DNA of 64,000 nt. It comes from Cohnella herbarum. Its GTDB lineage: Bacteria; Bacillota; Bacilli; Paenibacillales; Paenibacillaceae. The first letter of the stretch is position 1. The number at the start of each line of letters is the position of its first letter. The position numbers and the translations under genes were made by a program. Below the pieces are notes generated by a model. That model was given only the letters and a program-made list of their open reading frames with translations, did not search any database and was not told the DNA's origin. The DNA lies in the NCBI RefSeq assembly GCF_012849095.1, contig NZ_CP051680.1, forward strand, positions 7,861,001 to 7,925,000, written 5' to 3'. Shown piece after piece: positions 26,588-52,600 of this stretch.

Positions 26588-26710
26588 ACAGGGATAAGAA
26601 TAGACGACAGGCAGATATAACTCTCGCTAATCGTCGATTTTTTTAACTCATATGTAATTGATAATGTTACAGTTAATGCGAGACAAACTTCCGGATGGGC
26701 GGTGTTAAAG

Positions 26711-27079
26711 ATGAAAGTCGAAATCAGCGATTGGGTGCAAGCCAAAACGAAAAACGGGGAATTGATTCACGGTTTTGTAGATTCGTTAGACGTTCAAGCG
26801 GGTATGGCAACGGTATTCGCCGTTAAATCCGATAATTCGGAATCGATCGGCAGGCTGGTCTCCGTTCGCGAAGGTTGGTTGAGAAAGCTGCCGACGCATT
26901 CGTTCGAAGATGCCGAGTCCATCGAAAGCTTGATCGACATCGCTTTGGCCGCGAAGGATGAGCAATGGTTTAACGAGTTATCCCTGAAACTGTCGACCCT
27001 CTCGGTAACCGAGGGCGAGAAAAATAGGAAGCCTCATCGAAGAATATCTTCATCGAATCGGTTAGGATATCCGGTGTGA
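26711..27079 (+). CDS. IDEAL-domain protein
   Basis: A 122-residue protein. The first half is beta-rich (VQAKTKNGELIHGFVDSLD, GRLVSVREGWLRKLP). The second half holds ESLIDIALAAKDEQWFNELS, matching the IDEAL domain pattern (Leu-Ile-Asp-x-Ala-Leu, then Asp-x-x-Trp/Phe). IDEAL-domain proteins are small, Bacilli-specific and of mostly unknown function. A GTG lies 9 bases upstream, but GGGCGGTG with correct spacing favours ATG 26711. The gene has a repressible-looking promoter and a 27102-27135 terminator, so it is a regulated single gene. Confidence 0.83.
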   Translation: MKVEISDWVQAKTKNGELIHGFVDSLDVQAGMATVFAVKSDNSESIGRLVSVREGWLRKLPTHSFEDAESIESLIDIALAAKDEQWFNELSLKLSTLSVTEGEKNRKPHRRISSSNRLGYPV

Positions 27080-27101: not shown

Positions 27102-27135
27102 GCCGCTGATCTGAGAAGATTCAGCGGTTTTTTGT
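27102..27135 (+). terminator. Terminator after the IDEAL-domain gene
   Basis: GCCGCTGATCT pairs with AGATTCAGCGG (one bulge) and is followed by TTTTTTG. Confidence 0.85.
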
Positions 27136-27331
27136 TGCGCGTAATGCAGGGACCAAGAGTTCCTGCAAACATAAATTGAAAGAGTTTTCGCAATAGGACC
27201 TCGCTCTCTTCTTTAGCATTGTCATTCGCAACCGAAAAGTGGGCACTCTGAGCGGGATTAGAGCGGCTATGCCGCTACTACTCAGGTCTCCCCAGTCGCA
27301 AAGCTCCACGGCAAATCCATTAGAGCACAAA

Positions 27332-27727
27332 GAGAACCTTACACCCGCCCAAAGTTGGCTAACGATCCGAGAAGCGCACAGAGAGTACCTTATCTCCGCC
27401 GAAAGTTGGCTAATGCTCCTCGAAACGCACTGAGTACCTTACACCAGTCAAATTTCGGCTAACGATCAGGGAAGCGCACTGAGAGTACCTTATCTCCGCC
27501 GAAAGTTGGCTAATGCTCCTCGAAACGCACTGAGTACCTTACACCAGTCAAATTTCGGCTAACGATCAGGGAAGCGCACTGAGAGTACCTTACAGCTGCC
27601 AAATTTCGGCTAACGATCCGTGAAACGCACTGAGAGTACCTTACAACTACCGAAGGTTGGCTGACGATCCGGGAAACGAACTGAGATTACGTTATCTCCG
27701 CCAAAGGTCGGCTGACGACGGAGGATG
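27332..27727. repeat. Tandem repeat array A (49-51 bp units, about 8 copies)
   Basis: Units begin with GAG(AG)TACCTTA at 27332, 27381, 27432, 27481, 27532, 27581, 27632 and 27683, giving periods of 49, 51, 49, 51, 49, 51 and 51. Each contains GGCTAA(C/T)G and ends with a CGCACT-like stretch. The 100 bp at 27381-27480 are repeated exactly at 27481-27580, a very recent duplication. No convincing gene covers the array. Confidence 0.92.
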
Positions 27728-27818
27728 TTACTTAGTGTGAGGCTGGATGACGACTACGGTGAAGCAGACTAAAAAGTGCCTAGTAATACTCCCTAAAAGA
27801 AGTTGACCTGAGTAGTAA

Positions 27819-28379
27819 CGGCTACGCCGCTTTAAATCGAGCATGGAGGCACTTTTGATGGAATTAGAGCGGCTACGCCGCTTTAAATCGAGCATGGAGG
27901 CACTTTGGGTTGAATTAGAGCGGCTGCGCCGCTTTAAATCGAGCAAGGAGGCGCTTTTGATGGGATTAGAGCGGATACGCCGCTTTAAATCGAGCATGGA
28001 GGCACTTTGGGTTGAATTAGAGCGGCTACGCCGCTTTAAATCGAGCATGGAGGCACTTTTGATGGAATTAGAGCGGCTACGCCGCTTTAAATCGAGCATG
28101 GAGGCACTTTTGATGGAATTAGAGCGGCTACGCCGCTTTAAATCGAGCATGGAGGCGCTTTTGATGGGATTAGAGCGGATACGCCGCTTTAAATCGAGCA
28201 TGGAGGCACTTTGGGTTGAATTAGAGCGGCTACGTCGCTTTAAATCGAGCATGGAGGTACTTTGGGTGGAATTAGAGCAGCTATGCCGCTTTAAATCGAG
28301 CAAGGAAGCGCTTTTGATGGGATTAGAGCGGCTACGCCGCTTTAAATCGAGCATGGAGGTACTTTGGGTGGGACTAGCT
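27819..28379. repeat. Tandem repeat array B (51 bp x 11), each with a hairpin
   Basis: Eleven uninterrupted 51-bp units, phased from 27819 to 28329. Each carries the perfect palindrome AGCGGCTACGCCGCT (loop TAC, with minor variants), then TTTAAATCGAGCATGGAGG and a variable part (CACTTTTGATGGAATTAG or CACTTTGGGTTGAATTAG). Because 51 is 17 codons, both strands stay open; the plus strand would give 17-residue repeats MELERLRRFKSSMEALL, with TGGAGG placed 8 bases before each ATG in about half the units. Isolated palindromes of the same kind flank it at 27262-27276 and 28374-28400. Confidence 0.93.
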
Positions 28380-28430
28380 AGAGTGGCTTCGCTCTCGTAG
28401 AGTTGCACTCAAAGTAACTCATTAGGCCAT

Positions 28431-28565
28431 TTTAACCCGACCTAGCCGGTCTAAACCCGCGAATGGGCCAGCTCCGGTCGATTTAACCCTGCTGAGCCGG
28501 TCTAAACCGTCAAGTTCGGCACTTCCAGCCGATTAACCCGGTTGTGCCGCCTAATTTCATCCGGC
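28431..28565. repeat. Degenerate array C (about 51 bp, 2.5 copies)
   Basis: TTTAACCC at 28431 and 28482 and ATTAACCC at 28532 start related units that contain GCCGGTCTAAACC. The middle of a unit (GCCGGTCTAAACCG, then TTCGGCACTT) aligns with GCCGCTTTAAATCG and GGAGGCACTT of array B, so C may be a diverged relative of B. Confidence 0.65.
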
Positions 28566-28690
28566 GATGTCTCTACCGAGGAGATATAAATCGTAGCCTA
28601 GCGAATGCACCGCATTGAATTGAGAAGTATGACACACTGTGGATTTACTTAAGCGTCGGATAGCATAGAAAAGAGACAACTCTATTTCGC

Positions 28691-28750
28691 GAGCTGCCAA
28701 TCGAATGCCCGAACTGCCAATCGAATACCCGAGCTGCCGATAGAATGCCC
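28691..28750. repeat. Tandem repeat D (20 bp x 3)
   Basis: Three exact-length units at 28691, 28711 and 28731: GAGCTGCCAATCGAATGCCC, then a copy with two changes, then a copy with two changes. It lies about 100 bases before the aldo/keto reductase gene. Confidence 0.85.
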
Positions 28751-28854
28751 CAGTTGTTTACTTAGTACGGTTAAGTATACTTCTTATGCGATCGCAATCG
28801 GTTCGTTATAATTGATAAAGAATCAATTAAACAAATTTCCTGGAGGATCTTCCG

Positions 28855-29832
28855 ATGAGCAAAAACATTCCCTTGAATAAACACGGTTATACGGCTAGCC
28901 AGCTTGTATTAGGCTGTATGCGGCTTGGTGGCGAATGGAACGATAATCCGATTACCGCAGATCATGTAAAGCAAGCGCACGAAGCGGTCGACGCCGCTCT
29001 TTCGGTCGGGATCAATATGTTCGATCATGCGAATATTTATGCGTTAGGCAAAGCGGAAAAAGTGTTCGGCCAAGTGTTGAAGGAGCGTCCGGAACTCAGA
29101 GATTCGATCATCCTGCAATCCAAGTGCGGAATCCGTTTTGGGACGGACGACTATCCGCGGACTCGTTTCGATTTCTCGAAAGCGCATATCCTCTCTAGCG
29201 TGGACGACATTTTGGCTCGATTGGGCATCGAAAAGTTGGATATCTTGCTCCTGCACAGACCGGATCCATTGGCGGAACCGGAAGAAGTGGCGGAAGCGTT
29301 CCATCAGCTGAAAGCGGCAGGCAAGGTCGGAAGCCTGGGAGTCTCCAACATGAGCGAGGGACAGATGAAGCTTCTGCAAGCTTATCTGGACGAGCCGTTG
29401 GTCGCGAACCAGCTAGAACTCAGCTTGCTGAAGTTGGACTGGCTGGATTCGGTCGTCCACATCAATCAAGAAGACGGTAAGCGGTCTTCGTTCCCCGAAG
29501 GGACGGTCGAATACTGCAGGCTCAATAACGTGCAATTGCAAGCGTGGGGTCCGCTTTCTCGCGGATTATACGGCGGTAAGGATATCTCGGGCGAGAGCGC
29601 GAGCGTTCAAGAAACGGCTGCTTTGGTCGCGCAACTAGCCGAAGAGAAGGGGACGAGCAAAGAAGCGATCGTTCTTGCCTTTCTAATGAAGCATCCGGCG
29701 AACATCCAGCCCGTTATCGGGACAGTTAACCCGGAAAGAATCATCGCGTGCGGCGAGGCAGGCAAAGTCAATTTATCCCGCGAAGAATGGTATCATCTGT
29801 ACATTACGTCCCGCGGACGTCCGATGCCTTGA
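28855..29832 (+). CDS. Aldo/keto reductase
   Basis: A 325-residue NADPH-dependent oxidoreductase of the AKR superfamily. The catalytic tetrad is visible: Asp in NMFDHANIYALGKAEKVFG with Tyr, Lys in ILQSKCGIR, and His in LDILLLHRPDPLAEP. The TIM-barrel cofactor end holds PVIGTVNPERIIA. It resembles the YdhF/YtbE-like group of general carbonyl reductases. CTGGAGG sets the ATG, and TATAAT at 28807-28812 is a likely -10. It follows the repeat field and has no functional partner nearby. Confidence 0.92.
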   Translation: MSKNIPLNKHGYTASQLVLGCMRLGGEWNDNPITADHVKQAHEAVDAALSVGINMFDHANIYALGKAEKVFGQVLKERPELRDSIILQSKCGIRFGTDDYPRTRFDFSKAHILSSVDDILARLGIEKLDILLLHRPDPLAEPEEVAEAFHQLKAAGKVGSLGVSNMSEGQMKLLQAYLDEPLVANQLELSLLKLDWLDSVVHINQEDGKRSSFPEGTVEYCRLNNVQLQAWGPLSRGLYGGKDISGESASVQETAALVAQLAEEKGTSKEAIVLAFLMKHPANIQPVIGTVNPERIIACGEAGKVNLSREEWYHLYITSRGRPMP

Positions 29833-49681: not shown

Positions 49682-52600
49682 GTGCAGAATAACGACAAAA
49701 CGCGTGTGACCGTTGACATATATGGAACGCAATATACGCTAACGGGTCACACCAGTACCGAACATATGAAACGGGTTGCCGCTTTGGTCAACGAGCATAT
49801 GAGCAAAATTAATAGCGGGTCTCCCCGTTTGGATTTACCGAAATTGGCCGTGCTTGCCGCCGTGAACGTTGGCGATGAGTTAATGCGATTGCGCAGGGAA
49901 AACGAGCAATTGCTTAAGGACGAGACGGAGAACGCCCGAAAAATCGAGGAACTGGAAAGTTTAAAGGTAGAAACCGCGCAGGAGCTGGCGTTCGTTAAGG
50001 AGCAGGTCGCGGAGGAATTAGAGTTCGTAAAAGCCCAGAAGGCGGAAGAACTAGAGAGCCTTAGATCGAAGGCGGACGCGGAGTTAGAGAGCCTCAGGGA
50101 GAAGACGACGGCGGAGCTTGAAATCGCGAAGACCGAGGCCAGCAAAGAGATGGAAGCTCTGCGAGCGGATTTGACGGCCGAGTTGGAGAATGAACGGTCC
50201 GAGGCGCTGAAAGCGAGGGAGCTTGCCGAAGCCAAAGCGGCGGAGCTCGAGAGCGAGAAGGAAAGGGCTGCGGAAGAGTTAAAGCTCTTTAAAGATCAGG
50301 CTGCCGAAAGCCTAGAAGCGTTGAATGTCAGGAAAGCGGAAGAAATACATAACTTGACGCTTAAATCGTCGGCTGACCTGGACAACGAGAAAGCTCGGGC
50401 TGCTTCGGAGCTGGGGACTTTAAGGGCGCAATGGAAAGCGGATATGGACAACAAGCAGGCCGAGGCTTTGGACGAGTTAGAGTTCGTCAAGGCTCGGGCT
50501 GCCGAAGAATTGGCGGACGTTAAAGCGCAAGCGGCCAAGGAGATAGAGGAAGTTAAAGCCCGGACGGCTGAAGAGCTTGAAGTCTTTAAAGCTAACAAGA
50601 CGGAAGAGCTGGAAAGCTATAGAGCGAAATCGGCAGCGGAACTAGAAAACGCCAAAAATCGCGCAGCGAAAGAGCTAGAGTCCTTGCGTGCGCAGTTGTC
50701 GGCGGAATTCGAGAGCGAGAAAGCGCAGTTGGCCGAAGAGCTGGATTTCGTCAGATCCGAGAAATCGGAACAAGTGGAAGGCTTGATCGCGAAGACGGCG
50801 GAATTGGAGAAAGCGAAGCAGCAATTGGCCGAAGAGCTGGACTTCGTCAAAGCCGACTATTCGGAGCAAGTTGCAAGCTTGATAGCGAAGTCGGCGGAAC
50901 TGGAGAAAGCGAAGCAGCAGTTGGCCGAAGAGCTGGAATTTGCCAAAGCGGACAATACGGAGCAAGTGTCAAGCTTGATCGCGAAGACGGCGGAACTGGA
51001 GAATGCGAAGCAGCAGTTGGCTGAAGAGCTGGACTTCGCCAAAGCGGACAATACGGAGCAAGTGTCAAGCTTGATCGCGAAGTCGGCGGAACTGGAGAAA
51101 GCGAAGCAGCAGTTGGCTGAAGAGCTGGACTTCGTCAAAGCCGACCATTCGGAGCAAGTGGAAAACTTGATCGCGAAGACGGCGGAATTGGAGAAAGCGA
51201 AGCAACAGTTGGCTGAAGAGCTGGACTTCATTAAAGCCGTGGCTGTTGAAGATTTGGAAAGTCTAAGGGCGAAGTCGAATGCGGAGCTGGAAAGCGTAAA
51301 AGCGCTGGCCGGAGAACAACTGGAATCTCTGCGCGCGGAGTTGACGACAGCATTCGAGAAAGAGAAATCGTCAGCTAGCCACGAATTAGCTCAAATATCC
51401 GGCGAACTTGAAATGTTAAAGGCGGAATCGTCCGAGTTGCTCGAATCGGTCATGACGCAAGCCTCGGCAGATTTGGAAGGCGCGAAGGTAAGGGCGGAAT
51501 TAGAGCTCGAGCAAACGAGAATTCACGCTGAGCAGGAATTGGAAAGCGCCAAAGCGTTGGCAGCCAAGGAATACGAGCGGTTGAAAACGGAAATGACGCA
51601 GCAATTGGAGAGCTTGAAGACTCAAGCTTCATTGGAACTGCAACAGGCGAAATCCGAAGCCGATCAAGCGCAACGGTTGGCTGGGCTCCAAGCCGAGCAG
51701 GAGCTTGAAGCGTTAAGGGAACAGTTCGATCGGCAACTGGAGCAGACGAAGCAGCAAGCGGCCGCGGAACTGGGTAACGCTCAAGCGGAAGCCGAGTCTC
51801 TAACCCTTCAGTTCGTCGAGGAGAAAAAGGCATGGATCGCGAAACAAGCGGAGATCGAAGCGATATTAGGTTCGGATCTCGATAGCTTGAAGCAGGCGCA
51901 CTCGGAAGAGCTCGAGGAGCTGACGAACCGTTTCCGCAGGGAATCCGAGGAGCAGAACGGCAAATATATGGCCGAGAAGATCGCCTATGCAAGCCAGAAG
52001 GAAGCAGAACTGCAAACCTTGAAAGTCAAATTGGAATCGGAGATTAAAGATGTCGAGACGATGTACTCCGACGAGCTTGAATCGATGAAGAAGAAGCTTG
52101 AAGCATTGGTAGTCGCGCAGGAAGATTGGCTGGCGAGAGAACGGGAATGGCAACAACTGCGCGGGCAACTCGAGAGCGACGTCGAGCATTGGGCAAAAGA
52201 AGCGGAAGACCAGCGTCGAACGATTATCGAGCAGCAAGAAATGCTGCAAGAGGTCGAAGCGCAAACGATGGAGCGCTTGAACTCGCACGCCTCCGCGCTC
52301 GAGAAGGCGGAGCAAGAGCGCGACGAGCTTGCCCGCCAGCTTGGAGAGCGGGACGAGTGGGAGAAAGCGTGGAGCGATTCGATGAAGGAGTTGCAAGCGC
52401 GCGTAGCGTCGGCGCAGCAAGAGCAGCGCGCCGCCGCGGAGAAGACGGCGGCGCTAGAGGCCCGCATCGCCGAGCTTGGCGATGCGGAGGAGGGCTTGCG
52501 CGAAGCCGCGCAGCGGGCGGAGCGCGAGCTTGAGGCGGCGCTCGCGGAAGCGGCGGCCGCACCTTCTCGCGAGGCGGGGTTGGCCGCCTCGCAGGAGGAG

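Follow-up and report, generated by a model that had tools for sequence, protein, structure and literature searches.

A 51-bp hairpin-bearing tandem array of Cohnella herbarum belongs to a Cohnella-wide class of intergenic repeats

A gap between two genes of Cohnella herbarum is occupied by tandem copies of a 51-bp unit, and the question arises whether such an array encodes a repetitive peptide, acts as a structured RNA or a protein-binding array, or represents a neutral minisatellite. The window analysed here is a stretch of 64,000 nucleotides (contig NZ_CP051680.1, positions 7,861,001 to 7,925,000 of the forward strand), and the features of the gap are collected in Table 1. The tandem organization described in the first-pass annotation of this DNA is real, Tandem Repeats Finder (TRF) delimiting an array at 27819-28365 with a period of 51, 10.7 copies, 89% matches, 0% indels and a score of 898. 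The uniformity attributed to the units was overstated: the 15-mer AGCGGCTACGCCGCT, said to occur in all of them, is found exactly only 5 times (5 of 11 registers), and the hairpin, said to be perfect in all of them, has a perfect six-pair stem in 6 of the 11 registers read from 27814 and keeps 5 of the 6 pairs in the remaining 5. A hairpin of the form TAG-6 bp-3 nt-6 bp-TTA is recognized in 10 of the 11 registers (27865 onward), the first register being devoid of the TAG foot, and the array is followed at 28375 by a decayed register with 2 of 6 pairs. The array was rightly distinguished from a CRISPR: instead of identical repeats with unique spacers, its units consist of a hairpin and of a spacer that is repeated together with it.

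Table 1. Features of the gap that contains the reported array (positions of the window).
Feature	Position	Strand	Basis
Upstream flanking gene, IDEAL domain at the Pfam cut-off (22.1 vs 22 bits)	26702..27079	+	
Terminator-like hairpin and T-run behind the upstream gene; the array cluster starts after it	27103..27133	+	by eye
Array cluster between the upstream gene and the aldo/keto reductase gene	27140..28756	.	limits approximate, by eye
Lone degenerate hairpin, family of the reported array; TAG and AGCGGC/GCCGCT stem, 3' foot lost	27259..27279	+	by eye
Array of a different sequence family, register ~51 bp	27331..27713	.	TRF and genome search
Reported array, 11 registers of 51 bp	27814..28374	+	TRF and register reading
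Third family, two copies 51 bp apart, inverted orientation	28431..28532	-	sequence comparison
Three ~20-bp repeats adjoining the arrays	28681..28750	.	TRF
Downstream flanking gene, aldo/keto reductase	28855..29832	+	

The neighbouring array is read by TRF with a period of 51 for 27331-27694 and a period of 100 for 27332-27713, and the two copies of the third family, which are 71% alike, display TAR-N15-YTA at 28433 and 28484, either copy having 4 of 6 pairs. From the upstream gene to the reductase gene, the gap measures 1775 bp here, versus 121-317 bp in four named Cohnella sharing this gene pair (L074-L077); the closest named relatives at one protein are C. sp. WQ 127256 (85%), C. mopanensis (85%) and C. 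lupini (83%). No 51-bp array adjoins the reductase gene in the 11 other Cohnella genomes found via the reductase, 4 of which keep the upstream gene in the examined stretch and, judging by the gap length, are probably L074-L077 themselves. Most simply, the cluster was gained in the lineage of this genome. A plasmid or phage origin was rejected, since neither the plasmid nor the phage collection contains DNA similar to 27320-28560.

The search for the unit elsewhere in the genome, proposed along with the original description, yielded 58 matches in 13 places, and the family of the neighbouring array yielded 47 matches in 14 places, its own site included. Besides the reported unit, the 8.5-Mb genome thus holds ~51-bp arrays unrelated to it in sequence. 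A scan of 800 kb sampled from the genome at fixed intervals, the second half of which was drawn only from the first 4.1 Mb, returned 10 arrays with a period of 51 and a single one with 102, every other period from 25 to 210 occurring at most once. The same scan returned periods 50 (2), 51 (3), 52 (3), 206 and 207, together with 43, 45 (2) and 48, from 400 kb of four other Cohnella, and periods 84 and 156 from 870 kb belonging to 71 non-Cohnella loci. Collecting arrays with periods of 49-53 bp or multiples thereof, partly via the reported family or model R1 and with duplicates dropped, gave 87 from 15 species, which were distributed into 42 sequence families at 70% ungapped identity. The period is 51 in 73 of these 87 arrays (four of them read from 102), and the ungapped identity between families (0.445) lies close to that of shuffled sequences (0.414). 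With E values of 0.01 or better, model R1 matched 26 of 37 Cohnella genomes; this figure and the counts per genome are rough, because R1 leans to its founding families and no more than 150 candidates were scored in any genome. Throughout the order (198 genomes, 30 candidates per genome, stricter filters), R1 matched three Cohnella genomes and three others with one match each; no 51-bp array was found in the latter three, and the 50-bp arrays of G003 were missed, so that scarcity elsewhere does not mean absence. The reported array is one member of a Cohnella-wide class and not a single repeat.

Some arrays of other periods deserve a mention. In Neobacillus cucumis (L111, 6997-7563), a tandem array of different sequence has a period of 156, i.e., 3 x 52 bp, and is possibly a similar phenomenon outside Cohnella. 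Short-period, CAAC-rich arrays (13-15 and 31 bp) occur at L021 3735-4173, L053 18869-18970 and L011 4305-4651, two of them adjoining 51-bp arrays. Arrays of this genome with periods 94, 141 and 58 (L160 5974-6187, L162 8065-8472 and L039 17826-18088, respectively) all contain the word GGGATAATGGC.

The families have in common a persistent shape, TAR - 6 bp - 3 nt - 6 bp - YTA (21 nt), completed by a spacer of ~30 nt. The strict motif was identified in 28 of 44 array consensus units, against 0.14 expected from shuffles, and is missing from 16, including that of the neighbouring array 27332-27713; under a relaxed rule it occurs in 47 of 62 arrays with a period of 51 or 102, again gathered at chosen periods, partly via the reported family or R1, with duplicates dropped. 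Loop-3 hairpins with TAR/YTA feet number 11 in the 800 kb of this genome, 4 in the 400 kb of the four other Cohnella and 0 in the 870 kb of non-Cohnella DNA. Most control feet gave 0-3 hairpins in either Cohnella set, and the highest control count outside Cohnella was 5 (AAR-YTT). Among 25 aligned units, chosen by the motif (of the 28 that bear it, three whose motif spans 19 nt were set aside), three of five covariation measures exceed all 500 shuffles: the covariation score (0.347 vs 0.143 shuffled, slid controls reaching at most 0.123), the paired cells (83.7% vs 71.3%) and the cells changed on both sides (39 vs 19.1). Pairs changed on both sides (7 vs 6.6) and further pair types (11 vs 11.8) show no excess. 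Positions T15, A16, T33, T34 and A35 are invariant in the 25 units; the base preceding TAR is an A or a T in 25 of 25, and TTA closes the opposite side. The suggestion of a structured nucleic-acid array, offered at first as an alternative to a peptide, is accordingly supported, the stems differing between families while staying paired and the hairpin positions being constrained within arrays.

The array at 27331-27713 keeps a register of ~51 bp and is dispersed in the genome, yet it is devoid of the strict motif; likewise, the 51-52 bp arrays at L070, L073, L069 and L274 (G023) lack the 21-nt motif, some of them seeming by eye to possess a shorter hairpin with similar feet. Fixed array ends were looked for and rejected, as the boundaries vary and several arrays end soon after a hairpin but follow no rule.

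Arrays are located between genes. None of 34 arrays overlaps a called gene in the gene-called stretches of this genome (G000), where 83% of the sequence is called coding. Genes being called by a simple procedure that relies on ORFs, and most loci having been reached via a single family, 11 of 22 gaps with arrays are convergent, versus 41 of 319 array-free ones (Fisher p 7e-5). In the window together with the sample taken at fixed spacing, 3 of 7 array gaps are convergent. The 20 flanking proteins examined consist of 19 with Pfam matches to unrelated, ordinary families and one without a match, and one of the 19 is an IS256-type (Mutator) transposase. With GC-skew switches placed at 1.25-1.32 and 5.24-5.66 Mb, 15 arrays are leading and 18 lagging; a mechanism tied to the lagging strand was rejected on this lack of orientation bias.

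Across species, one and the same intergenic gap may contain an array, a hairpin without an array, or neither. Of 37 Cohnella genomes, 35 yielded FtsY, and the comparison covered 30 loci; the gap between smc and ftsY, which carries an array in G000, varies in length from 5 to 641 bp. Arrays of ~51 bp, belonging to seven different families, occupy this gap in 7 of 30 species (G000, G015, G010, G041, G020, G014 and G002), a hairpin according to the 21-nt rule occurs without a TRF array in 4 (G022, G004, G044 and G016), and neither was found in the remaining 19. A second, weaker hairpin copy is visible by eye 51 and 52 bp further on in G044 and G016, and the 19-nt hairpin of G015 escapes the rule. 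G000 and G015, neighbours in the ftsY tree (support 90/35), have a short spacer word in common, as judged by eye. No clustering of the arrays on that tree was detected (4 changes vs a shuffled mean of 3.6, for the 11 labelled species only). Similarly, among 27 putatively orthologous seryl-tRNA synthetase loci (62-81% identical), 51-bp arrays of differing sequences lie just downstream of the gene in G000, G015 and G006, a 113-bp repeat of 2.2 copies lies downstream in G010, and a 52-bp array upstream in G023.

Taken together, the hairpin shape and the length of the unit are maintained while the letters vary; the arrays are accordingly not a peptide gene and have the look of a structural or selfish DNA repeat. 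We consider, with a probability of about 0.57, that they represent a palindromic repeat of Cohnella that is dispersed, amplified in tandem and non-coding, dependent on its hairpin, intergenic, satellite-like and comparable to REP, BIME or BOX elements. The unit consists of the 21-nt hairpin (TAR, 6-bp stem, 3-nt loop, 6-bp stem, YTA) and the ~30-nt spacer, giving 51 bp. Recombination would copy blocks of units from gap to gap, arrays would lengthen or shrink in place via unequal exchange or slippage, and they would survive best in tolerant gaps, e.g., between convergent genes. The hairpin would act as a folded strand (a cruciform, single-stranded DNA or RNA), serving either the propagation of the repeat itself or as a binding or insulating structure. 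A bolder version, put forward as a tentative possibility, supposes a satellite-like DNA that inherits its shape but not its sequence: a Cohnella machine, such as a hairpin-reading nuclease or a chromosome-structuring protein, would read one TAR-hairpin-YTA per 51 bp, hold this geometry over dozens of families with otherwise unrelated sequences, and expand or preserve arrays in corresponding gaps, e.g., smc-ftsY, across species.

Among known systems, the arrays work most like BIME or BOX repeats. BIMEs bind gyrase, IHF or DNA polymerase I, and in BOX elements boxA and boxC modules flank the boxB copies; no modules resembling boxA or boxC were noticed beside the Cohnella arrays. The mycobacterial MIRU-VNTR loci are, like the Cohnella arrays, dispersed intergenic tandem repeats, of roughly 40-100 bp and with small open frames; they belong to a different phylum and are not known to display a conserved hairpin. 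REP and BIME resemble the arrays in consisting of numerous short palindromes located between genes, frequently grouped in tandem and bearing a fixed word of a few letters at the foot of the hairpin (PMC8266576, PMC3733652, PMC2817692). The Cohnella feet are TAR...YTA on both sides, whereas REP carries a GTAG tag on one, and no GTAG (or CGTC) tag was seen at one palindrome end in the 25 aligned consensus units. The Y1 tyrosine transposase (RAYT, PF01797) has no match in this genome, against 5 positives among 14 control genomes, E. coli included, and no candidate mover was found. Membership of the REP/RAYT system was rejected on both the transposase and the tag, although the arrays, like REP, are multicopy, intergenic and palindromic. 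The GTAG survey, one of the three REP/BIME sources cited above, lists Proteobacteria, Cyanobacteria, Chloroflexi and PVC, the word Firmicutes being absent from its text. Also, Cohnella units are head-to-tail direct repeats at 51 bp, in contrast to the alternating inverted palindromes of BIMEs. BOX of Streptococcus pneumoniae is likewise a Firmicute intergenic repeat with a tandem module, a predicted fold when transcribed and an excess between convergent genes, and the accessible part of its description contains no statement that boxB maintains a constant length under turnover of its sequence (PMC3049150). PARCEL repeats resemble the arrays in being tandem and palindromic and readable as an amphipathic helix, and differ in being protein-coding with 25 residues per unit (PMC2996958), whereas the Cohnella unit has 17 and a synonymous rate at chance.

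No description of repeats of this kind was found in the literature searched, the coverage of which excludes most subscription journals. Most descriptions of intergenic palindromes in bacteria concern single-sequence families, each with one transposase. Here, by contrast, period and hairpin geometry are held, within one genus, over families whose sequences otherwise resemble each other little more than chance, without PF01797 in the one genome tested. Such a geometry makes the arrays a natural system for questions about satellites: what fixes the length of a unit, whether selection or templated repair preserves the hairpins, and whether the arrays insulate genes or shape the chromosome.

The changes within arrays bear on the most serious alternative, namely that of neutral minisatellites growing by slippage and copied by chance recombination, their hairpins being only apparently conserved through quasi-palindrome repair while the exposed loops mutate faster. 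In 39 arrays (184 inner units), i.e., those with at least three readable units among the 47 motif-bearing ones, distinct changes per column amount to 0.068 in the feet, 0.120 in the stem, 0.427 in the loop and 0.200 in the spacer. The ratio of foot plus stem to spacer is 0.51 (0.36-0.69), that of loop to spacer 2.15 (1.53-2.84), and the true mask gives the lowest value of all 51 rotations. Variation is not spread evenly over the unit, contrary to what a neutral minisatellite would show, a pattern with which a mutational cause is nonetheless compatible. The changes in the stems are mostly uncompensated (67 broken pairs, 16 wobbles and only 4 cells changed on both sides, all four in one array), which suits neutrality, as do the cluster missing from the orthologous gap of four relatives, the decaying array edges, the lack of strand preference and the two covariation measures at shuffle level. 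Against it, a period of 51 recurs across families that are near random to each other, a result obtained from a selected range of periods but matched by the unselected scan; the feet are the least-changing positions; and the pair adjoining them stays G.T (A.C when read from the opposite strand) in 24 of the 28 motif-bearing units, where templated correction should have made it perfect. A neutral origin is unlikely on this balance.

A role in RNA is more doubtful than neutrality. On this view, arrays lying at the ends of genes would give rise to RNA tails with several hairpins, which would terminate or stabilise transcripts arriving from either direction, in the manner of a bidirectional attenuator; the AT-rich sides of the hairpin on both strands, the excess between convergent genes and the paired-cell and covariation scores above shuffles are consistent with it. 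However, the tails are not T-runs, and the scan for terminator-like patterns lists no site in the array; neither does it list the hairpin seen by eye at 27103..27133, with which the upstream gene would already be equipped. The arrays show no bias of orientation relative to the nearest gene pointing at them (13 sense vs 9 antisense). One-sided stem changes favour A.C over G.T on the TAG..TTA strand, 38 to 16, which runs against an RNA made from that strand; this polarity may be mutational. Finally, no Rfam family reaches its gathering threshold in the window, the best hit in the gap being a miRNA model at E 0.37, with 21.7 of 79 bits.

A double-stranded operator array, in which a dimeric DNA-binding protein would read TAR...YTA about two helical turns apart, accounts for the nearly invariant feet and for the lack of any effect of orientation, but it is very improbable: a reader of double-stranded DNA needs no paired stem, yet the stems stay paired while their letters differ between families.

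The least credible reading is that of an amphipathic helical peptide encoded by the array, which was favoured in the first-pass annotation on account of frames open on both strands, of changes thought to be mostly silent or to swap hydrophobic residues, and of TGGAGG before ATG in many units. The frames are open indeed, which is uninformative since 71% of shuffled 51-mers set in tandem are open as well, and synonymous changes represent 4 of 13 distinct changes in the reported array, where 3.8 are expected. The comparison of synonymous and non-synonymous changes, extended to 21 arrays of the reported family (263 distinct changes, the proposed frame being open in 18 consensus units), gave 62 synonymous, 155 non-synonymous and 11 stop changes versus 60.9, 157.4 and 9.6 expected, all at chance level and without any avoidance of stops. 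On the minus strand, the frame that is open in every one of the 21 arrays behaves similarly (76/182/5 vs 74.6/180.8/7.7). For the peptide speak an ORF of 185 amino acids with GGAGG before ATG in units, the proposed frame being open in 19 of 25 consensus units of the family (through the whole array in 15), and one frame that, among 17 arrays of other hairpin families, is open in 4 and shows 22 synonymous changes versus 12.7 expected. Relatives with periods of 50 and 52 cannot hold one frame throughout an array. The 185-aa ORF matches nothing in NCBIfam, and its sole Pfam score at the cut-off, NOP5NT (27.2 vs 27 bits), covers 17 residues, no individual stretch passing alone. The peptide was rejected for the reported family, and the reported array is non-coding. 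A 96-bp tandem repeat of 5.4 copies (TRF) at 50721-51239 of the window contrasts with these non-coding 51-bp arrays in that, by eye, it appears to be coding, with a coiled-coil-like unit of 32 residues.
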